A DNA stretch of 38,619 bases, taken from contig JAFSVK010000123.1 of assembly GCA_017444985.1 (NCBI GenBank), positions 1-38,619 of the forward strand. The letters run 5' to 3'. Below are positions 2,178 to 26,585 of the stretch, in pieces (positions within the stretch are counted from its first letter, which is position 1; the number at the start of each line of letters is the position of its first letter). This DNA comes from Bacillota bacterium (GTDB lineage: Bacteria > Bacillota > Clostridia > Lachnospirales > CAG-274). The notes beneath the pieces are model-generated. The model made no database searches, had not been told where the DNA came from, and saw only the letters and a list, made by a program, of their open reading frames with translations. A program made the position numbers and the translations under genes.

Positions 2178-3788
2178 TTATCTTAATATCTCAAATATCT
2201 CATCAAATGTAACTACCCCCGCTATTTTATCTTCATAGCAAAGATCTTTTATATTTCCGAATACTTCGTCTACCTTGGCTCTTATTTGAGCTTGTTGCTC
2301 TTGTGTGGGCTCGGTGGTAGTCATATTATCAGGCAGAACATCGGGGTTCTTGCCGTCGAAGGAGTAGTTTTTGGAAGAGGAGAGCACCTGCATTTCAACA
2401 GGGGTAACGCCTCTTATTTTACACTTTAATATATAGTTGGAGTTGGCGTCCTCGGCATCTTGACCTTTTTTGCCGTCAAAACCGTTATCATAGCCTATTG
2501 TGTTGTTAATGTCTATTTTGCAGGCACTGTTGTTCATATCAAAGCCTTTTTGACCGTTTTCAAAGGCTATACAGTTTTCCACATACCTGTACTGCTCGGG
2601 GTTGGAGTACTCGGAGCCGAATTTAAAGCCGTTGGGGTTTCCTCCCCAGTGGTTGTAGTCTATATTTTTGCTTTGTATGGTGGAGCCTAAAAGTTTTATG
2701 GTAACATTGGGCCAAGTTTCCTTGGTATATACTTTGTTGTTGTAGTTTTCAAGGAAGTTTGGCTCTTGTTCTATAGCTGCCTGTATGTAGAGCATTCTCT
2801 CATCGGCGGGCAGACCTCTTTCATAGTCATCCCAACAGGTAAAGGTGTCAAGATCGCCGTTATGCCAGCAGAGGCAGTCTATATAGGATATATTGTAAAC
2901 ACCATTGTGCTGTTGTTGGTCGTAGCTGTCCCAACCGTCGTCACCGTTTTCCCAAGCTCTGCAGCTGTAGCACTTGTTACCGTCGCCCGCACCGAGCTTT
3001 ATGGAAAAACCGTCGGCATCGGCACCGTATCTGGGGCAAAGGTCGCAGTTTCTGTAGGAGTCCACACCTATAAAGGTGTTGTCGTGGCCACCTTCCGTAA
3101 CGGATATACCCGAGTTATTGTTGTAGTTGAATATACAGTTTTCAAATATACAGTTGCCTGCACTGCTACCCTTTATTCTTGTACCGCAGTCACCTGCATT
3201 TGTAACAATAAGGTTTTTAAAGTTGTAGTAGGAGCCGCTTATCATAAGACCCGTACCGCCCGAACCACGGTTTGTAAGAGAATCTCTGAACTTGTAAAAA
3301 TCAAGCTTGGGAGCTGTACCGTCGGACTTTGTAACACCTACAAAGTTTATGTTGGCATTTGCTTTGTCAAGCTTTATTTGTGCCGTGGGATATATGTCCT
3401 CCGTAATATATATTACCCTTTGTTCGCTTGAGGTACCCAGCTCGCTTATGGCACTTTTAAGCTCTTCGTAGGTGGATACGCTTATTTCCTTTGTGTATAC
3501 CGTAGGTACGGGAGAAAAGCCTTCGGGAAGCTCTCCGGGCACTTTAAACTTGTCTATGAGCCCTGCCGTATACTGAAGTATAAGAGAGGCATCCTTTGCG
3601 TTCACCTCATCGTCAAAGTTAACATCTCCGTTCGGGTTCTTTTCTTCCTTTCCCGTTTCCATGGAAAGCACAAGAGAGGCATCCTTGGAATCTACCGTTT
3701 CATCGTTATTTACATCTCCCGTTAAGGCATATACAGCCGTATTCAACAAGAGTATGCTGCCTGTAAAAATACTTAAAAATTTTTTCAT
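2178..3788 (-). CDS. secreted PL9-like pectate lyase with N-terminal dockerin
   Basis: The 536-residue protein starts with a signal peptide (about 1-21). A dockerin-like pair of Ca-binding repeats follows (about 22-80; GDVNNDETVDSKDAS and GDVNFDDEVNAKDAS), then a right-handed beta-helix. The segment DADGFSIKLGAGDGN (257-271) and NGDDGWDSYD (281-290) match the calcium-site and active-site region of polysaccharide lyase family 9 enzymes, which cleave polygalacturonate by beta-elimination with Ca2+. D259, D283, D284 and D287 are the likely calcium ligands, judged by family pattern. An N-terminal dockerin is less usual than a C-terminal one. The start ATG has AAAGGGG upstream, and the gene has its own promoter and terminator. 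Confidence 0.88.
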   Translation of the reverse strand: MKKFLSIFTGSILLLNTAVYALTGDVNNDETVDSKDASLVLSMETGKEEKNPNGDVNFDDEVNAKDASLILQYTAGLIDKFKVPGELPEGFSPVPTVYTKEISVSTYEELKSAISELGTSSEQRVIYITEDIYPTAQIKLDKANANINFVGVTKSDGTAPKLDFYKFRDSLTNRGSGGTGLMISGSYYNFKNLIVTNAGDCGTRIKGSSAGNCIFENCIFNYNNNSGISVTEGGHDNTFIGVDSYRNCDLCPRYGADADGFSIKLGAGDGNKCYSCRAWENGDDGWDSYDQQQHNGVYNISYIDCLCWHNGDLDTFTCWDDYERGLPADERMLYIQAAIEQEPNFLENYNNKVYTKETWPNVTIKLLGSTIQSKNIDYNHWGGNPNGFKFGSEYSNPEQYRYVENCIAFENGQKGFDMNNSACKIDINNTIGYDNGFDGKKGQDAEDANSNYILKCKIRGVTPVEMQVLSSSKNYSFDGKNPDVLPDNMTTTEPTQEQQAQIRAKVDEVFGNIKDLCYEDKIAGVVTFDEIFEILR

Positions 3789-8210: not shown

Positions 8211-8266
8211 CGTTACAAATATTTTTGGGGTACATAGAGGTGCCCCCATGCGAAAGGAGCGTATGT

Positions 8267-11200
8267 ATGAGAAAGAGATTATTGGCGACGATACTTGCTT
8301 TCACCATGGCTTTGGGTATAAACGTATATGCCCGCTACGATGTTGATACCTACAACTATCGTAAGACCACCGATTTGGAAGCTTCTATAGAAGAGGGCAA
8401 GATCACCGTTACCTGGCCTGCGGTAAATAAACAAGGGGAGCTTATAAACGCCAACCCCTTGCAGTCTAACTCAGCCTACGGAAATCCCACGGGAGGCTGG
8501 ACGGCACCTACTGCGGGTATGATAATAGGCTATCCCAATTGGCAGGCGGACGGTACCGTTAAGCCCAACAACGGAGATAAATCGGGTAATAACCCTATAT
8601 ACAGAGGTTTTGTAAGCGATGTTACGGACTATCCCGTAGCCATGCAAGACCCTAAAGATTCTTCTGTTATAGCTAAGGATGGCTATATAGATACTACGGT
8701 GGTTTCTGCGGACTATGCCTCCGCCTACCGTATCTATACCTCTACGGATAATGTAAACTGGAAGCTGGATCACGATATGACTACCGTGGATCACGGCAAA
8801 AAGTTTGCCCGTCCCAACGGTGACGGCACATATACCGCAGACAGACAGAACACCTTCTTCCTTGAAGACCAGTATGTGGAACAGTTGGTAGGTTCCTTTG
8901 AGGCGGATACCACCTACTATATAAAGGTGGTCGCTACCTGTGCCTCAAAGCTTACGGATAACTACAAAGAGTTTACCACCTCCATAAAAACAGAGGCGGC
9001 AAAGGTGCTTTATCCTGCCTTCCCTACGGTAGAGGGCAGCGGTATCTATGCCCAGGGCGGAAGAGGTACAGACGAAAAGCCGGGAGATGTTTATGTCGTT
9101 ACAAATCTTACCGACTCTGTTTCAGACCCTCAACCCGGTTCTCTTCGCTACGGTCTTTTGAGAAAGGACAGAGCGGACGGTAATTCTCTTTACCCCAGAA
9201 CAATAGTTTTTGCCGTAGACGGTGTTATAGATATAGACCCTACGGTATCAAAAAGCCAGAGAAGATTTAATGTAAACTCCAACACCACCATAGCGGGACA
9301 AACAGCTCCCGGAGAGGGTGTTACCATAAGGGGCGGTTCCGTTAAAATAGACGGAAGCGACATTATAGTAAGATACTTGAGAATAAACCTTGGAGAAGGT
9401 TATGACCAGGATGCGGCAACGGCAACGGGTGAAAACATCGTTGTGGATCACTGCTCTTTCATGTGGGGCGTTGACGAGTGCTTTACCGCAAAAGAGATAA
9501 TAAACTCAAGTATACAGTACAACATTATAGCTACAAGCTTGGGTTTCCCCGATAAAACAGGCTCAAACAACTCCGATGCGGAGATAGTTGCGGGAGAAAG
9601 CGAAGCAAAGCACGGTATGGGCTCCATACTTAACGGTTACAATGTTTCCTACACCCATAACCTTTGGGCAAACCACGGCACAAGAAATCCTCGTTTTGAA
9701 GGGGGATTTACATATAAAAATGTGACCTACGGCAACCTTATGGACTTTTCAAATAACGTCATATACAACTGGGGACATAACTCGGGCTACGGCGGTGAAA
9801 GAGGAAACGGCACCACCAATATGGTGGCAAACTACTACAAGCCCGGACCCAACACCCTTGAAAAGGCATACACAAGAATATTCGATGTTGACGGCAGCAC
9901 AAGCAAGTACTATGCTACGGGCAATGTTATGACATCAAGTTCCGATGTTACAAGCGACAACACTCAAGGTTTCTTTGAGTCCACCGCTTCCACCTTCCTT
10001 TCTTCCAAGGCTCAACTTCAAAATGTCTACACGGAAGAAAGTGCAAACGATGCTTACGAAAAGGTACTTTCAAATGTAGGAGCATCCTTTAGAAGAAATG
10101 CACAGGATGCACGCCTTGTTGAAGATGTAAGAAACGGTAAGGGACAAACCATAAACAACGAAAAGGAAGCAGGCGGTGTGATAGTAAGTGATTACGGTAT
10201 CTCCGCACCTGCAGACACCGACAAGGACGGTATGCCCGACAGCTGGGAGATCGCTCACGGTTTAGATCCTTCGGATGCAAGGGATGCGGGACTTATAGTT
10301 CGTGATGAAACAAAGTCCTACAACGGCTATTCAAATATAGAAGTTTATTGTAACGATATTTTGGGAGAGTGGAAAGAAAGTGACAACTCCGCTGTAAGAA
10401 GCGCCAACCCCACCGTAATACTTGAGGGTGTTGATATGCAGCAGGGTGGCTTACTTGTTCCCAAGGACAACAATATAGTACTTGAAATAGGTGAAAGTTA
10501 CCACGCTAAGGCAAGCGTAAGCGGAAGCAACTATGAAGTAAGAGTAAACGATACCGCAGTTTCAAAGGGTAGCCTTGATTTTACCCTTCCCGAAAGTCTT
10601 GCACCCGGTACCTACTACCTTACGGTGGTGGAGCATACCTCAAGAGGTGACGGCATATCCGAAAAGGTAAGATTTACCGCAGTTCCCAAGGGCTCTGTGG
10701 GAAATAACCTTGAAAACTTCGTATCAAACGATATAGGAAAGGTAAGATTTACGGGTAGTGACAACTACGATAGCGCAAACTCTACCCTTACACAGGTAGG
10801 CTCGGGTAGGATAGGTATACTTAACACCACAAGCACCTATGAAAAAGATGCCTTCCACTATGATTATACACAGGTAACGGGAGACTTTACATTCTCCGCA
10901 AGAATGGACAACCTTGCCAAACTTGACTATCTGCAAAAGTCGGGTCTTATGGTAAGAGGCTCCCTTTCACCCGAAAGTGAAATGTATATGGCCTCTCTCA
11001 CCTACATAAAGGGAGAGGACTACGAAGGCAGCGTTGATGTGGTGGGCTCTGCCATGAAGGCTAAGACTATACGCCCCGTAACAAGAACGGCAGACGGTGC
11101 CAATGCCATAGCAAGAAACAATATGTTGGGTATAGCTCAGGTAAGAGAAGGCTCCACACCTAACCACGGCTACGGCAAAATAGAAAGAAAGGGCAATACC

Positions 11201-11587
11201 ATAAACATATACGGCTCTTTAAACGGCACCGATTGGTATGAACTCTACACCTGGGAGTCTACACTTCCCGAAAAATGCTACATAGGTTTTGCCACCGATG
11301 CGGCTCAGGACTATATGGAGCTTAGCAGAATGAATGCCACACTTTTCTCCGAAATAGCTATAGAAGGCGCAATATCCAAGCCTCAGCTCATTTTGGGAGA
11401 TGTAAACAGCGACCTTTCCGTAGACTCAAAGGATGCCTCCTTGGTACTCCAACACTCCAGCGGTGCAGTACTCTTAGAAGGCGATGCCCTCACAGCGGGT
11501 GATGTAAACTTTGACTCATCGGTAGATTCAAAAGATGCTTCCCTTATACTCCAGTATACATCGGGCAGTATAACAAGTTTTAAATAA
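8267..11587 (+). CDS. large secreted pectate-lyase-like protein with C-terminal dockerin
   Basis: This 1106-residue protein has a signal peptide (1-22), a beta-sandwich/fibronectin-like region interrupted by an insert (about 35-245), and a pectate-lyase-like beta-helix (about 250-620). The helix has the marks YVVTNLTDS, GSLRYGL, TIAGQTAPGEGV and VVDHCSFMWGVDE of the PL1-related group. A Ca-binding DTDKDGMPDSWEIAHGLDP segment, a DUF1349-like jelly-roll (DFTFSARMDNL...SGLMVRG) and a dockerin pair (about 1045-1106; DVNSDLSVDSKDAS and DVNFDSSVDSKDAS) follow. It probably cleaves pectin outside the cell. The start ATG at 8267 follows AAAGGAG; the frame opens earlier, but the signal peptide fixes this start. 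The enzyme subfamily is not certain. Confidence 0.88.
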   Translation: MRKRLLATILAFTMALGINVYARYDVDTYNYRKTTDLEASIEEGKITVTWPAVNKQGELINANPLQSNSAYGNPTGGWTAPTAGMIIGYPNWQADGTVKPNNGDKSGNNPIYRGFVSDVTDYPVAMQDPKDSSVIAKDGYIDTTVVSADYASAYRIYTSTDNVNWKLDHDMTTVDHGKKFARPNGDGTYTADRQNTFFLEDQYVEQLVGSFEADTTYYIKVVATCASKLTDNYKEFTTSIKTEAAKVLYPAFPTVEGSGIYAQGGRGTDEKPGDVYVVTNLTDSVSDPQPGSLRYGLLRKDRADGNSLYPRTIVFAVDGVIDIDPTVSKSQRRFNVNSNTTIAGQTAPGEGVTIRGGSVKIDGSDIIVRYLRINLGEGYDQDAATATGENIVVDHCSFMWGVDECFTAKEIINSSIQYNIIATSLGFPDKTGSNNSDAEIVAGESEAKHGMGSILNGYNVSYTHNLWANHGTRNPRFEGGFTYKNVTYGNLMDFSNNVIYNWGHNSGYGGERGNGTTNMVANYYKPGPNTLEKAYTRIFDVDGSTSKYYATGNVMTSSSDVTSDNTQGFFESTASTFLSSKAQLQNVYTEESANDAYEKVLSNVGASFRRNAQDARLVEDVRNGKGQTINNEKEAGGVIVSDYGISAPADTDKDGMPDSWEIAHGLDPSDARDAGLIVRDETKSYNGYSNIEVYCNDILGEWKESDNSAVRSANPTVILEGVDMQQGGLLVPKDNNIVLEIGESYHAKASVSGSNYEVRVNDTAVSKGSLDFTLPESLAPGTYYLTVVEHTSRGDGISEKVRFTAVPKGSVGNNLENFVSNDIGKVRFTGSDNYDSANSTLTQVGSGRIGILNTTSTYEKDAFHYDYTQVTGDFTFSARMDNLAKLDYLQKSGLMVRGSLSPESEMYMASLTYIKGEDYEGSVDVVGSAMKAKTIRPVTRTADGANAIARNNMLGIAQVREGSTPNHGYGKIERKGNTINIYGSLNGTDWYELYTWESTLPEKCYIGFATDAAQDYMELSRMNATLFSEIAIEGAISKPQLILGDVNSDLSVDSKDASLVLQHSSGAVLLEGDALTAGDVNFDSSVDSKDASLILQYTSGSITSFK

Positions 11588-18053: not shown

Positions 18054-19187
18054 ATGAAATTATCAAAATTTACAGCCCTTACTCTTTCGGTGGTAACACT
18101 TTTTACTACCTGTGTTTGGGCAAACTCGGAAAACTATGTTTCCAAAAATCAATCAGTAAAAGATGGGGCATCCCTTGCCAGGGCAAATATTATTATTCGC
18201 CCCGAGGATGAGGTGGAAACGGGAGATTCCATAATTATAACCTTTAAAAATGCAAAGGTATTCTCTCAGGCTGTAATAGACGGTACCACCAGCGACTCCA
18301 CCCTTAAGGGCTATAAGAGCGGTGGCTACCAGTACAAGTATGATGGGGATATATGGAATAAGAGACACGGCTTTAACGAGATAAAAGACGAGCTTGACGG
18401 CAATGAACTTCCCTATAGGATACAGAGAACGGGAGACCATGAGATAGAGGTATTCCTCTGCGACCTTCCCGATGCTTACACGGATGACAAGTATCACTAC
18501 GAGATACCTATAGTAGCCTATGCCGATGTAAATACGGCTACGGGCAGGACCATAACAGCTACCATAGACTCCAACGGCACAAGTATCTCAAGCGGTAATG
18601 CTATGGGAAACGGCACAACGGCAGGAGGCAAGGAAGAGGAAGAAGAAAGCAGTTCAAGTAAAAAAAGTTCATCTTCATCATCTTCAAGTGATAGTTCAAC
18701 GGAGGCTACCACAAAAACTCCCGTATCAAATGTATCTGTGGAAACAAATACCGGAAACGGCACACAGAAACAAAGTACATATGTAAGAGTGCAGATAGGT
18801 GCTTCTCAACTTAAAGTAAATGCTACGGCTTACGATATCGACGTACCTGCCTACATACAGCTTGAAAGTCAGTCTACCATGGTGCCTTTGCGTGCCGTAA
18901 CGGCAGCTCTTTCGGGTATGGCAGGCTCATATCAAAATGCCGACAGTATAGTAAGCTGGGATGCGGAAACAAAGACCGTAAATATAAACTACAAGGGAAA
19001 GAAAATAAGCTTCACCTCGGGTAGTGAGTACATGACGGTAAACGGTGAAAGAACACTTATGCCAAACGGTGTTAAAACAGAAATAGTAGAGGGAAGGACC
19101 TTTGTACCCTTCAGAGCGTTAGGCAATGCCTTGGGTGTAAGTGTAGATTGGGAAGCGGAAACAAAGACAGCTGTATTTGTATCATAA
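18054..19187 (+). CDS. secreted protein with C-terminal stalk (copper amine oxidase N-like) domain
   Basis: The 377-residue protein has a signal peptide (1-23), an N-terminal beta-rich domain of unknown type (about 30-180), an acidic/serine linker (about 195-222, with SSSSSSSS), and a C-terminal stalk domain (about 240-377). The stalk contains the pair STMVPLRAVTAAL...VSWDAETKTVNI and RTFVPFRALGNALGVSVDWEAETKTAVF, typical of the copper amine oxidase N-terminal-like family. The stalk domain binds or displays proteins at the cell surface in Clostridia; no enzymatic role is known. AGGAGG precedes the ATG. A dockerin protein follows 16 bp later. Confidence 0.88.
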   Translation: MKLSKFTALTLSVVTLFTTCVWANSENYVSKNQSVKDGASLARANIIIRPEDEVETGDSIIITFKNAKVFSQAVIDGTTSDSTLKGYKSGGYQYKYDGDIWNKRHGFNEIKDELDGNELPYRIQRTGDHEIEVFLCDLPDAYTDDKYHYEIPIVAYADVNTATGRTITATIDSNGTSISSGNAMGNGTTAGGKEEEEESSSSKKSSSSSSSSDSSTEATTKTPVSNVSVETNTGNGTQKQSTYVRVQIGASQLKVNATAYDIDVPAYIQLESQSTMVPLRAVTAALSGMAGSYQNADSIVSWDAETKTVNINYKGKKISFTSGSEYMTVNGERTLMPNGVKTEIVEGRTFVPFRALGNALGVSVDWEAETKTAVFVS

Positions 19188-19203
19188 GATAAGGGCTGAT
19201 CAT

Positions 19204-19749
19204 ATGAGATACCAAAAATTCCTTATAGCCTTAATTTTACTTTGCGGTCTCTTTACTGTAAATGCCTATGCCTTTAGCATAGACTCGGCAAGAGAAAAGA
19301 ACGGCAGTGTAGAGGTGGTTTGTAAAAGAGACGACAAGGGAGCCTTTAATGCTGTGGCATACGCAAGGCAACAGGATGCGAACGATATTTCCACGGCTAT
19401 ATACTTTGATTTTCTTCAAGTGGATGAGGGAGAGGATATGTCCTTTTCCTTTAAACTCCCCGAAAAGACTCAAAAAGATAAGGTATATATTTTGACCGTA
19501 TCCTGTGATACGGGCAGGGATACCAAAATAATATATTTTGAGGCTGAGGGCAGTGTTTACCTCTTAGGAGATATAAACGAGGACGGCTTGGTGGACTCAA
19601 AGGATGCCTCGGTACTTTTGCAGGCCATAGCCAAAAACGATACCGCCTCCATACTTGAAAGAGCCGATGTAAATAAGGACAAAACGGCAGACAGCAAGGA
19701 TGCCTCCTTGATACTTTCCTATGCCTCGGGGCAAACGGAGGGTTTTTGA
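19204..19749 (+). CDS. small secreted dockerin protein
   Basis: The 181-residue protein has a signal peptide (1-23), a short beta-domain of about 90 residues, and a C-terminal dockerin pair (121-175; GDINEDGLVDSKDAS and DVNKDKTADSKDAS). It has no visible catalytic domain, so it may be a structural or adaptor component. The start is the ATG at 19204 with AGATAAGGGCTGATC upstream. It is the last gene of the hslO run. Confidence 0.85.
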   Translation: MRYQKFLIALILLCGLFTVNAYAFSIDSAREKNGSVEVVCKRDDKGAFNAVAYARQQDANDISTAIYFDFLQVDEGEDMSFSFKLPEKTQKDKVYILTVSCDTGRDTKIIYFEAEGSVYLLGDINEDGLVDSKDASVLLQAIAKNDTASILERADVNKDKTADSKDASLILSYASGQTEGF

Positions 19750-20169: not shown

Positions 20170-20344
20170 TGATAAATGCTATACTTTTGTATTTATACTA
20201 TACATCATGGAATAATTGTTTTCAACAGAAATTTTTGCTCTTTACGTATATGATAATTTACTCCGCTACACACCCCGCATCCGTTTTATATTCAAAAATA
20301 CTACAAAAATATTGTATATATTCACTATATTTTTGCTTGTATTC

Positions 20345-20379
20345 TTGACTTTACAAGTAAATTTATATATAATACAAGT
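20345..20379 (+). promoter_or_regulatory. promoter of the CobK-CbiE-CbiT-like / CbiA-like / stalk unit
   Basis: TTGACT (near 20345) and TATAAT are 17 bp apart in a very AT-rich stretch. The leader is about 75 nt. This promoter also argues against translation starting further upstream in the open frame (from 20216). Confidence 0.8.
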
Positions 20380-20455: not shown

Positions 20456-22393
20456 ATGACAAAACTTATGATATTTGCCTGCACTTCCGAGGCTTTGGAG
20501 CTTATAAAAAGGTGCAGAGATTACAAAAACTTAAGCTTAGATATATTTACAAACGCATCGGGTGCGGAAAAGCATATACCTTTGGGAGAGAATATCACTC
20601 TTCATACGGAGGAAACGGATGAGGTGGCGCTGGCGGTCACCATAGGAAATATGCGCCCCGATCTTATAGTGGATGCCTCGGGAGGGGCTTTGGGTAAGCA
20701 TATATCAAAGGCAGCCTCCGTAGCGGGGATAAGGTGTATAGTGCTTTCTATAGATAAAAGCATAGAAGCCTACGGCTTAGTGGTAGACAACGTGGCAAAG
20801 GCTGTAAAAATGGTGGGTGCCAACAGGGGCAACATACTTTTAAGTGGCCTGTCGGCTAAAGATTTTGCGTCTATCCCCGGCTTTTCGCAACGATGCTTTT
20901 GGGAAAACACAGACCAAGCGGATACGCAAAAGGCTATACAAGAGGGTGTAGCAAGGGAAAATATTATAAATATGCCATCTAAAGCCAAAGCCTCCGACTA
21001 TGGCGAGGTCATAAAGCGATATAATATAAAATATATACTTACTACCTCTTCGGTGGAAAACATATATCTTAAAAGACAGGCCTGTAAGGCTTGCAATGCG
21101 GTGCTTGTGGCTGTAAAAGGCGAAAATGAAATGAGTTTGGATAAAACTCTTCTTGAAGTAAGAGATCTGTCGGGTAAAAAGAAGCTTAATATTCTTGCTA
21201 TAGGTCCCGGAAGGCAGTCCCTTATGAGCATGGAGACACAAAATGCCCTAACATCCTCCCATGCCCTTATAGGTGAGGAGGAGACTCTTAAACTCCTTGA
21301 CAGCTTTAAAAAAGAAAAAGTAAAAACGGACAGTATAAAAGATATGCTTTCTTTTATAATTTCTTCCTCGGGGAATATTTTTTCTCTTGTATATACCGAC
21401 AGTGAAAAGCTTTTTTCCTCCGTGGATGAAATAACGGAGTATTGTGAAAAAGAAGGTATAGAAGTAAATAACATTGTAGGTGTATCAACCTCGGACTACT
21501 TGGCGGGGAAAATAAATATAAGCAGCAACGGTGTTAAAAAAATAGATGCAAGGCAAAAGGGAGCACCCTTTTTAAATGATATAAAAGAGAATACTTCAAT
21601 ATTTATACATGCGGGGAAAAATGCTTCCCTCATACTTTCAAGGCTCTGTGATGAAGGTCTTGAAAGGATAAGAGTGTGTGTGGGTATGGACCTAAGCCTT
21701 GAAAGAGAGAGGATATTAAGCGGTTACCCCGAAGACCTTAAAAGTTTGAACTTCAGCGAAAACACTCTTTTGTATATGGAAAACGATGAGGGTGGAGAAA
21801 GCCTTAAAATAGGTATTAAAGAAAACAAGTTTTTAATTCCCGATGATGCAATGGCTCTTGCAAGTGAAGTCAGAGCGGTCATAATGAGTAAGTTTTCCTT
21901 GAAAAGAAGTGATAACATACTTTTTGCGGGGGGAGTATTCCCCGACCTTATAACGGAGTGTGCTTTAAATCTTCCTAATGGAAGGGCGTACATATTGGAA
22001 GAGAAGGGGGAGAATATAAGCATCATAGGTAAAAATGCCGCTCGTTTTTCACTTTCCAATATAGATACAAGGCAGTGTACTTTAAGAGATGAGACTACAG
22101 TAAAAGAAGAAGTATCTCAAATGGAAGATATAGCCTGTGTCTTTTCCGACAGCAGTGTAGGTATAGAAAATATTTATACCGCTCTTTTGAAGAAGGACAG
22201 CACAAAGAGATATGTTTTGGCTCTCTATTCCCCCGAAGAGGTGGCGAGGGCATCCAAAATATTTGAAAAATACGACTTTGAAAATATAGACCTTTGCCTT
22301 ATGAATATTTCAAAGGGCAAAAGGATAAACGGAAAGACAAATATAAAAGAAAATGATTTTATATATATTTTAACCGCAGATACGGGATTTTAA
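20456..22393 (+). CDS. CobK-CbiE-CbiT-like fusion with altered catalytic motifs
   Basis: The 645-residue protein has three corrin-pathway folds. Residues 1-222 resemble precorrin-6A reductase (CobK): FACTSEALEL, DLIVDASGGALG and NIINMPSKAK..YNIKYILTTSS. Residues 243-445 resemble the methylase CbiE (ILAIGPGRQSLMSMETQNALTSSHALIG). Residues 460-645 resemble the methyltransferase CbiT (ASEVRAVIMSKFSLKRSDN). In each part the key motif is changed. The CobK DSG-type triplet reads TSS and the DATHPYA region reads DASGGAL. The CbiE GDP motif reads TDS. The CbiT SAM loop DIGAGTG reads FAGGVFP. The frame is intact and followed by a CbiA-like gene. It is either repurposed or recently inactivated; the start at 20456 is chosen by fold and promoter. 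Confidence 0.8.
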   Translation: MTKLMIFACTSEALELIKRCRDYKNLSLDIFTNASGAEKHIPLGENITLHTEETDEVALAVTIGNMRPDLIVDASGGALGKHISKAASVAGIRCIVLSIDKSIEAYGLVVDNVAKAVKMVGANRGNILLSGLSAKDFASIPGFSQRCFWENTDQADTQKAIQEGVARENIINMPSKAKASDYGEVIKRYNIKYILTTSSVENIYLKRQACKACNAVLVAVKGENEMSLDKTLLEVRDLSGKKKLNILAIGPGRQSLMSMETQNALTSSHALIGEEETLKLLDSFKKEKVKTDSIKDMLSFIISSSGNIFSLVYTDSEKLFSSVDEITEYCEKEGIEVNNIVGVSTSDYLAGKINISSNGVKKIDARQKGAPFLNDIKENTSIFIHAGKNASLILSRLCDEGLERIRVCVGMDLSLERERILSGYPEDLKSLNFSENTLLYMENDEGGESLKIGIKENKFLIPDDAMALASEVRAVIMSKFSLKRSDNILFAGGVFPDLITECALNLPNGRAYILEEKGENISIIGKNAARFSLSNIDTRQCTLRDETTVKEEVSQMEDIACVFSDSSVGIENIYTALLKKDSTKRYVLALYSPEEVARASKIFEKYDFENIDLCLMNISKGKRINGKTNIKENDFIYILTADTGF

Positions 22394-22407: not shown

Positions 22408-23757
22408 ATGTCAAGAGTAATGCTTGCGGCAACATCAAGCGGCAGCGGTAAAACATCCATAACATGTGCTTTATTAAAAGTTATATTAAACAGGGGACTT
22501 AGTGTTAAGTCCTTCAAATGCGGTCCCGATTATGTAGATGCTATGCTCCATAAAAGCATAACGGGAGTGGAAGCGGGAAATCTCGACGGATTTTTCAACG
22601 ATAAAAATGCCATAAGGCAGAGGCTTGCGGAAAGCAATGCGGATATAAATGTAGTGGAAGGCGTTATGGGCTACTACGACGGTATAGCCTTTAGCGACAA
22701 GTATTCAAGCTACGATATAGCTATACAGACAAATACCCCCGTAATATTGGTGCTTGACTGTAAGGGTATGCTAAACTCCTTGGGTGCAGTGCTTAAAGGT
22801 TTTGTCACCTACAGGGAAAACAGCGGTATAGCAGGTATTATATTTAACAGATTGCCTGCAAATCTTTACGATGTTGTAAGCTATATAGCCTTGGATCTGG
22901 GTGTGGTACCTTTGGGATACTTGCCCAACCTTGATGAGGGACTTTTTGAAAGCAAGGATATAGGTCTTGTAACTCCCGATAACATAAGCGAGTTCCATGA
23001 AAGAGTTGACGAACTTGCCGAAAATATAGAGCGCTACATTGATGTGGACAGGATCATAAACATCGCACAGGCAGCGGGAGAGATAGAGTTCGAAAAGAAC
23101 GAAGTGGAAAAGAGTTTCTCCCTTGATATTGCGGTGGCTCACGATAAAGCTTTTTGCTTTAACTACGGAGATAACTTGGCACTCCTTGAAAAAATGGGTT
23201 GCAACATAAAGTTTTTCAGCCCCTTGGAGGACAGCGAGCTTCCCGATTGCGACGGTCTTATTATAAACGACGGCTATCCCGAGGTGTATGCGGAGGAGCT
23301 TTCCGAAAACACCACCATGCTCAAGTCTATAAATAAGGCTATAAAAGAAGGCCTTCCCACCATAGCTACGGGCAATGGTTTTTCCTATCTCCATGAAGAG
23401 CTGGAAAGTACCGACGGCAACTACTTTAAAATGGTGGGCTTTATAAAAGACAAAGCCTTTAATATGCACAGGCTCCACTCCCACTGCGGATATATCACCG
23501 CCAAGGCTACAAAGGACAACCTCCTTTGCAAGGCGGGAGAAACTTTTAACTCCAACGAAAGCCACTACTACGACAGTGACAACTGCGGAGAGGATTTTGA
23601 GGCAAATGTACCCGTAAGCAACAAGAAATGGAAAACAGGTACCGCTACGGCTACACTCTATGCGGGTTATCCCGTGATATATTTCCCGGGTGCTCCTAAG
23701 ATGGCGGAAAACTTCCTTAAGACTTGCAACCGCTACAAAGCAAAAAAGAATAAGTAA
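22408..23757 (+). CDS. CbiA/CobB-like amidotransferase with apparently inactive glutaminase domain
   Basis: The 449-residue protein is the cobyrinate a,c-diamide synthase fold. The synthetase part is conserved: P-loop SSGSGKTS (10-17), KCGPDYVDAMLH (37-48), GNLDGFF (57-63) and VVEGVMGYYDG (82-92). The GATase-type C-terminal part (about 240-445) lacks the catalytic Cys: the AECGG motif reads ATGNG (320-324). The late SYxHLH motif also reads YPVIYF (421-426). The enzyme would then need free ammonia or do a different ligation. AAAGGAGGAGAGGGAT is the ribosome site, 14 bp after the fusion gene. No other B12 genes are visible. Confidence 0.85.
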   Translation: MSRVMLAATSSGSGKTSITCALLKVILNRGLSVKSFKCGPDYVDAMLHKSITGVEAGNLDGFFNDKNAIRQRLAESNADINVVEGVMGYYDGIAFSDKYSSYDIAIQTNTPVILVLDCKGMLNSLGAVLKGFVTYRENSGIAGIIFNRLPANLYDVVSYIALDLGVVPLGYLPNLDEGLFESKDIGLVTPDNISEFHERVDELAENIERYIDVDRIINIAQAAGEIEFEKNEVEKSFSLDIAVAHDKAFCFNYGDNLALLEKMGCNIKFFSPLEDSELPDCDGLIINDGYPEVYAEELSENTTMLKSINKAIKEGLPTIATGNGFSYLHEELESTDGNYFKMVGFIKDKAFNMHRLHSHCGYITAKATKDNLLCKAGETFNSNESHYYDSDNCGEDFEANVPVSNKKWKTGTATATLYAGYPVIYFPGAPKMAENFLKTCNRYKAKKNK

Positions 23758-23769
23758 GGACGGGATATT

Positions 23770-24609
23770 ATGAAATTGCAGGTATTGAAAGTTGGGCTTG
23801 CCACTCTTTTGTGTACAAGTGCCGTTTATGCTTCGGAGGTAAGGGTGACACTGAACAATTCCTTTGTGTCCTTTCCCAACGGGCAACCTCGTATAGTACA
23901 GGGCAGGACCCTTGTTCCCGTAAGAGGTCTGTTTGATAATATGGGCTATGATATTTCCTGGGAAGCGGAAAGTAAAACCGTGACACTCTCAAAAGAGGGC
24001 AGTGATATAGTCATACATATAGGAGATGATTTTCTTACGGTAAACGGCAAAGAGGTTTCTCTTGATGTACCTGCCCAGATCATAGACTCTTCCACTATGC
24101 TCCCTTTAAGGGCTATATCCGATGCTACGGGAGCTGTGACATTGTGGAACAGTGACTATAAGACAGCTTCTGTGGTGGAAAGAGGTATTCAAGCCGAATA
24201 TCCCCAAAGAGAGCTAAATTTAAATACCTCTGCGGAAAAAACTTATGTAGAGGCATTTTCCCAAATATCAAAGAAGTTTAATGAGGACAACAAAGAAAAT
24301 GTGGCTGTATTGTCAAAGGCTTTGAAGGATGGAAATATTTCCTCTCTTTCCTCCGTGTCGGCTACCTTCCTTTCCTCCCTAAGAAGTACGGAAAAGGAAA
24401 TAGCCTCTTTGGATACCCCCTCATCTTTGGAAGATTTAAGCGTTGCGGCAAGAAACTATCTTTCCGCCCTCGAAAGCCTACTTGAATATACCCAAAGCTA
24501 CAGCGAGGGTAAGATAGAAAAGGGCGAGTACGTAAAGGAAATAGAAAACAGATTTTCCAACCTCTTGGTAGCCCAAGCGGTCTATACGGAAGAAATAAAT
24601 TCCCTTTAA
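23770..24609 (+). CDS. secreted stalk-domain protein with helical C-terminus
   Basis: The 279-residue protein has a signal peptide (1-22), a copper-amine-oxidase-N-like stalk domain (about 23-140; GRTLVPVRGLFDNMGYDISWEAESKTVTL and STMLPLRAISDATG), and a helix-rich C-terminal region (about 150-279). The start lies 12 bp after the CbiA-like gene, so it is the third gene of that transcript. Its stop codon is the TTAA of a 21-bp terminal inverted repeat (24606-24626). Function is unknown; linkage to the corrin-like pair is the interesting part. Confidence 0.87.
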   Translation: MKLQVLKVGLATLLCTSAVYASEVRVTLNNSFVSFPNGQPRIVQGRTLVPVRGLFDNMGYDISWEAESKTVTLSKEGSDIVIHIGDDFLTVNGKEVSLDVPAQIIDSSTMLPLRAISDATGAVTLWNSDYKTASVVERGIQAEYPQRELNLNTSAEKTYVEAFSQISKKFNEDNKENVAVLSKALKDGNISSLSSVSATFLSSLRSTEKEIASLDTPSSLEDLSVAARNYLSALESLLEYTQSYSEGKIEKGEYVKEIENRFSNLLVAQAVYTEEINSL

Positions 24610-26369: not shown

Positions 26370-26585
26370 TGATGTGACATAAGAGCGATGAAGCAGAGGT
26401 TGCCGTGAAAGCGGGTTTTCTGCGGAGCGATGTCCGGTTCAAGAAAACGGGCGACAAGGTCAGAGTGTTATATGTTGTTTGTGTGTTTCTTAGAGGAAGT
26501 ATCCTTATGAGTTGCAAAAAGAAACACGCGGATAAGTGTGCAGTCACCGCTTGTCGTACTAAAAGATTTTAAAAGTGCGAAAAGG
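26370..26585 (+). ncRNA. candidate S10 operon leader RNA
   Basis: About 220 nt separate the promoter from rpsJ. The leader begins GATGTGACATAAGAGCGATG, is GC-richer than its surroundings, and has several complementary pairs (GCGGGTTTTC/GAAAACGGGC; GTGTGTTTCTT/AAGAAACACGC). Firmicutes S10 operons often carry an autoregulatory leader here. Assigned by position and apparent structure only. Confidence 0.5.

Follow-up and report, generated by a model that had tools for sequence, protein, structure and literature searches.

In canonical CobK/CbiJ-CbiET fusions, such as those at the G007, G015 and G025 loci, the gene stands in an operon with CbiD, CbiF, CbiG, CbiH and others, and the protein keeps all of its motifs. 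It is also already known that partial sets of leftover B12 genes occur in organisms that do not make cobamides: in the passages of Shelton et al. (PMC6461909) drawn on here, predicted cobamide non-producers keep a few corrin genes, with cbiA/cobB present in 2.6% of non-producers. We analyzed a 38,619-nucleotide stretch of DNA (the window; contig JAFSVK010000123.1) from a Bacillota bacterium of the order Lachnospirales, which encodes a fusion with the same domain order, length and fold as the canonical fusions but with neither their operon nor their motifs. The CobK-CbiET fusion as such is frequent in the order; what is rare is the motif loss together with the lack of a surrounding pathway.

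The earlier note on this DNA had described one 645-codon frame spanning CobK-, CbiE- and CbiT-like domains, and that description was exact: a single open frame on the forward strand runs from an ATG at 20456 to a stop ending at 22393 with no internal stops, and profile and structure matches agree on the three domains. A longer version starting at an in-frame TTG at 20216 was disfavored, as homologues begin at the ATG. The features of the locus, all on the + strand, are as follows.

20345..20373, +, sigma-70-like promoter (TTGACT-17-TATAAT) upstream of the fusion, 11/12 matches in a consensus scan, a match that alone is no evidence of function
20456..22393, +, 645-aa orphan CobK-CbiE-CbiT fusion, every domain with changed motifs (frame, profiles, alignments and structure match)
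20456..21175, +, CobK/CbiJ-like domain, residues 1-240 (Pfam CbiJ; structural match to CobK 5c4r/4x7g)
20672..20692, +, DATHPYA site of CobK, here DAS-GGAL with three residues deleted (alignment with canonical homologues)
21041..21052, +, TKxSG site of CobK, here TTSS, with TK(E/N)SGxxGGF replaced by TTSSVEN (alignment)
21176..21793, +, CbiE-like tetrapyrrole methylase domain, residues 241-446 (Pfam/NCBIfam profiles and structure comparison)
21395..21403, +, SGD site of CbiE, here TDS, with SGDxxxYSG replaced by TDSEKLFSS (alignment)
21794..22390, +, CbiT-like domain, residues 447-645 (NCBIfam profile and structure comparison)
21923..21946, +, DIGAGTGS SAM loop of CbiT, here FAGGVFPD, with DIGAGTGSV replaced by LFAGGVFPD (alignment)
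22408..23757, +, CbiA/CobB-like partner with its ATP domain retained and the glutaminase Cys and His lost (NCBIfam CobB; alignment)
23770..24609, +, copper amine oxidase N-domain protein (Pfam PF07833, 2.5e-29)

The Pfam CbiJ/CobK profile matched the fusion at 1.8e-10 (41 bits against a cut-off of 28.6) and TP_methylase matched weakly (5e-6), while the NCBIfam CbiE and CbiT profiles matched at 1e-7 to 1e-9, both well under their curated cut-offs (36 bits against the equivalog cut-off of 92.9 for CbiE and 32.7 bits against 78.3 for CbiT). An AlphaFold model built from 13 homologues had a mean pLDDT of 80.5 but a pTM of 0.37, and we therefore trusted the individual domains but not their mutual arrangement. 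Structure comparison gave residues 1-240 the CobK fold (5c4r; Z 16.7, rmsd 8.6) and residues 453-643 the class I methyltransferase fold (CbiT 2yxd; Z 21.2, rmsd 2.2 over 170 residues). Residues 239-444 have the TP methylase fold of the CbiE/CbiF type, with a Z of about 16.8 to CbiF/CobM structures in VIA-align and with the CbiE structure 2bb3 among the Foldseek matches (1.8e-7).

As the reference for motifs we used canonical fusions and stand-alone CbiET proteins from within the family and order, almost every one of which lies in a B12 operon. In the alignment, the motifs GT(T/S)EGR, DATHPYA, TTGSK, TKxSG, SGD, VPMTKxE, DIGAGTGS and FIGG were near-universal among these homologues and all were lost from the window protein. 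None of the four CobK/CbiJ motifs is intact, GT(T/S)EGR being replaced by CTSEAL and TTGSK by SGLSA in addition to the changes at the DATHPYA and TKxSG sites, and the CbiT region shows further replacements of VPMTKxE by AMALASE and of FIGG by FSDS. The note's claim that diagnostic motifs are altered in every domain thus held against canonical homologues, but not every residue is gone: the CbiE domain still has IGPG, which is its first glycine loop, as well as GVS around residue 342 and, further on, ExI and EN. At positions that do not vary among canonical proteins, the window protein has the canonical residue at 15/44 in CobK, 15/27 in CbiE and 8/29 in CbiT. The note had held that homologues of the same sequence with normal motifs would speak against it; correct alignment did show homologues whose motifs are normal, but these are the presumed working enzymes of full B12 operons, and their sequence is different.

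Motif-poor orphan fusions were found in the window species, in G001 of the same genus and in G018, G011 and G061 of the sister genus, where they stand directly after secA and prfB; no copy was found in G002, a same-genus genome that is 71% complete. A profile built from four of the five orphans that it recovers was run against 392 genomes of the order and scored above 900 bits in these five orphans only, with canonical fusions reaching at most 654. G018, deposited as Candidatus Gallispira edinburgensis, has two CobK-CbiET fusions, of which one is motif-poor and follows secA-prfB and the other is intact and lies in a B12 operon (L034:8333-14033, L036), and in G011 we found no tetrapyrrole or corrin-ring genes except for a weak CbiB-like match. 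In a scan of named genomes, the loci L099-L107 appeared to be ordinary B12 operons with intact fusion motifs where alignable, the fusions of L099 and L105 appearing to be split into two frames. The orphans grouped with G007-type canonical fusions in the tree (support 100/99), but we do not claim a single origin for all five, for which support was only 76/69. The CobK motifs are lost in 5/5 orphans, whereas the glycine-rich CbiT loop is retained by 4/5 (G001, G018, G061 and G011) and absent from the window protein. The CbiT SAM loop of the same-genus G001 orphan is still canonical, and thus total motif loss is confined to the window species. The terminal branch of the window protein is about three times longer than that of its sister (2.26 versus 0.79).

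Omega was 0.05-0.07 for the sister-genus orphans, lower than for canonical fusions (0.11-0.13), showing that the loss of motifs does not prevent a fusion of this kind from being well conserved. For the window/G001 pair, dN was 0.83 in the fusion and 0.17 in its operon partner CbiA, so that the fusion evolved about five times faster. Because pairwise dS for this fusion was saturated and a five-class codon tree reached its branch-length limit on both the window and G001 branches, the omega values there were not used, and omega was instead read at a neutral distance of about 4-6 substitutions per codon, estimated from further genes in this genus. At those distances omega was about 0.5-0.8, and a model with omega=1 was worse by 8 to 45 log units and was rejected at realistic divergences. 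The frame contains no stops, versus about 35 expected from neutral simulation. Where every canonical protein has a hydrophobic residue, the window protein also has one at 57/64 columns in CobK, 43/46 in CbiE and 36/40 in CbiT (89-93%; background, 39-46%), and its hydrophobic core is as well preserved as in constrained relatives. Of 20 CbiT invariant residues present in G001, the window protein has lost 13. We concluded that the fold has been selected and the active sites have not. These results agree with the proposal in the earlier note that the protein is probably maintained for another purpose; its alternative of a dN/dS near 1 was not borne out, but selection is clearly relaxed in the window lineage.

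The stop codon of the fusion is separated by 14 bases, with a strong Shine-Dalgarno site, from the CbiA gene, and the two are probably cotranscribed. The copper amine oxidase N-domain gene begins 12 bases downstream of CbiA, a spacing from which it may belong to the same operon. CbiA scored 367 bits with the NCBIfam CobB profile (curated cut-off, 254), had a dN/dS of 0.059, and retains the P-loop and EGVMGYYDG in its ATP-binding synthetase domain along with 36/44 invariant residues. In the glutaminase domain, however, AECGG reads ATGNG (C322G) and GYPH reads GYPV (H423V), positions that we take to be catalytic from what is well established for triad glutaminases and from their invariance in this alignment; the hydrophobic core of this domain is preserved despite both changes. 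The fusion-CbiA pair is also present in G001, a second species of the genus with an independently assembled genome, in which CbiA runs off the contig end ahead of the glutaminase domain. Elsewhere in the window, an S10-Clostridia ribosomal leader (26380-26457) precedes the ribosomal protein operon, as expected, and three dockerin-bearing proteins (2178-3788, 8225-11587 and 19177-19749) suggest a cellulosome-like system.

The genome is a 98.5% complete draft in 219 contigs, and the gene absences reported here come from targeted searches, for which relatives served as positive controls. The fusion gene is its sole CobK-CbiE-CbiT copy. The one further TP methylase resembles the rRNA methylase RsmI present in all relatives, and CobA, CbiL, CbiF and CbiH are therefore absent. 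A concatenated query of CbiK, CbiD, CbiC, CbiG, CobU, CobS, CbiB, CobD and CbiP matched only CbiD, CobS and aminotransferases (the CobD part), leaving CbiK, CbiC, CbiG, CbiB, CbiP and CobU with no match in the genome. HemA, HemB and HemC were not found with queries that match relatives strongly. The second intact set of B12 genes for which the earlier note had proposed a search in close genomes was not found in this genome, and neither was any tetrapyrrole pathway. A search for a cobalamin riboswitch within the window found none. The genome does encode an 801-aa B12-binding protein of the size of methionine synthase (MetH) and, since the pathway genes are absent, we predict a corrinoid user that apparently, from its gene content, cannot make any tetrapyrrole.

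An orphan CbiD (L077:8547-9665 on G000:C6; also L079 and L080) occurs in all three genus members, without the remainder of the corrin pathway. It shows 66-70% identity among the three, a dN/dS of 0.13-0.19 and altered signature residues, TTGTC being replaced by GTDSC and the NPxLGI stretch deleted. Directly 3' of it lies the gene for a fast-evolving 178-aa protein with no Pfam match (L077:9665-10201; orthologues at L079:908-1444 and L080:8696-9232; 37-41% identity between species), whose conserved YNGCGxLALYN may recall a cysteine peptidase, by resemblance only. A CobS homologue stands beside a CAAX-protease-family protein in two genomes otherwise without B12 synthesis (L078:9510-11241 on G000:C123 and L081:9142-10792 in G002); the copy on G000:C123 is surrounded by unrelated genes.

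Motif loss, the missing pathway, the MetH-sized B12-binding protein, the conserved fusion-CbiA pair, the catalytic losses in CbiA, the constraint on CbiA, on CbiD and on the sister-genus orphans, the kept core and the absence of stops make up the case for repurposing, and suggest that old B12 enzymes have been turned to a new use. Our preferred explanation, held tentatively and at a little under an even chance, is that the fusion is a maintained pseudoenzyme, repurposed after pathway loss and perhaps handling an imported corrinoid with CbiA. The ancestor would have been a functional CobK-CbiET fusion belonging to the anaerobic route to B12; as the lineage lost tetrapyrrole and corrin synthesis, the fusion would have been retained as a folded pseudoenzyme. 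Judged from its motifs and the missing pathway, it would carry out neither precorrin-6A reduction nor SAM-dependent C5/C15 methylation, and it is presumably catalytically dead for corrin synthesis. Its CbiA partner would still bind ATP but no longer take ammonia from glutamine. The fusion, CbiA and the diverged orphan CbiD would all formerly have bound the corrin ring at nearby pathway steps, and the trio may now bind or pass on a ligand without synthesis, the simplest candidate being imported corrinoid for methionine synthase. We infer that the fusion and CbiA work together on this corrinoid, and that CbiA contributes either ATP-driven switching or the activation of a carboxylate. A function common to all orphans cannot need CbiA or CbiD, because the G011 orphan after secA-prfB has neither.

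The case against repurposing is the roughly fivefold faster evolution of the fusion relative to CbiA, its omega and the long window branch, which also fit a gene that is being lost, together with the CbiT SAM loop that is missing from the window protein but present in G001. The main rival, which we judge improbable on balance but far from negligible, is thus a relic under relaxed selection in this single lineage, left over after pathway loss and degrading slowly, with only the gross fold selected, until its eventual loss. The omega of 0.5-0.8, the window end branch of 2.26 versus 0.79, the CbiT invariants gone from the window protein but kept by G001 and the missing copy in the incomplete G002 genome are all as a relic would have them; the lack of any stop or frameshift where some 35 stops would be expected, a core kept as in constrained relatives, the near-consensus promoter, the strong Shine-Dalgarno site preceding CbiA, and the strong constraint on the adjoining CbiA are not.

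A different new role, as an altered enzyme or binder for a non-corrin ligand, with the CbiT domain perhaps still a methyltransferase in the other orphans, appears distinctly unlikely. The other four orphans keep the CbiT glycine-rich loop although their CobK motifs are gone, the sister-genus copies follow secA-prfB and are strongly constrained, and the CbiT domain is structurally near RNA methyltransferases, as is every protein of that fold. Against this, the SAM loop itself is absent from the window protein, nothing independent points to a substrate, and the joint survival of CbiA and CbiD again suggests corrins. That the fusion is a working corrin enzyme with unorthodox motifs, using scavenged precorrin intermediates, is strongly disfavored and hardly credible: some CbiE signature residues remain, and salvagers of tetrapyrrole precursors are known (described in the passages of PMC6461909 cited above), but the SAM-binding and CobK motifs have been substituted or deleted and no precorrin intermediate could be finished, as CbiL, CbiF, CbiH, CbiG, CbiC, CbiB and CbiP were not found in the genome. 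Least probable of all is an assembly or contamination artefact, which a many-contig draft might invite; the same contig carries ribosomal protein, recA and Obg genes, and the fusion-CbiA pair recurs in the separately assembled G001.

Returning to the maintained pseudoenzyme, its broadest form, which we consider somewhat unlikely, is that the altered yet folded fusion, CbiA and CbiD form a new ATP-dependent handling system, for a corrinoid or another ligand, in bacteria unable to make tetrapyrroles; the sister genus would also have recruited a related fusion, which one of its genomes carries in addition to an intact copy in a B12 operon. If the trio works, it would show how proteins that bind a ligand can outlast the pathway that made it and be reused by an auxotroph, and the system would be a tractable model for testing pseudoenzymes that handle cofactors. 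In automatic annotation all three genes of the trio would be scored as belonging to B12 synthesis, in an organism that apparently can make no tetrapyrrole. A search of an open-access library turned up no paper on pseudoenzymes derived from corrin synthesis, which is no proof that there is none. Compared with known CbiA/CobB cobyrinic acid a,c-diamide synthases, the window neighbor keeps the ATP-site motifs and differs by Gly and Val in place of the glutaminase Cys and His. Like the non-producers of PMC6461909, as described in the passages cited, the window organism is a predicted cobamide user with <5 corrin genes; its leftovers combine catalytic motif loss with preserved folds and purifying selection, whereas those passages describe leftover genes without discussing their motifs.
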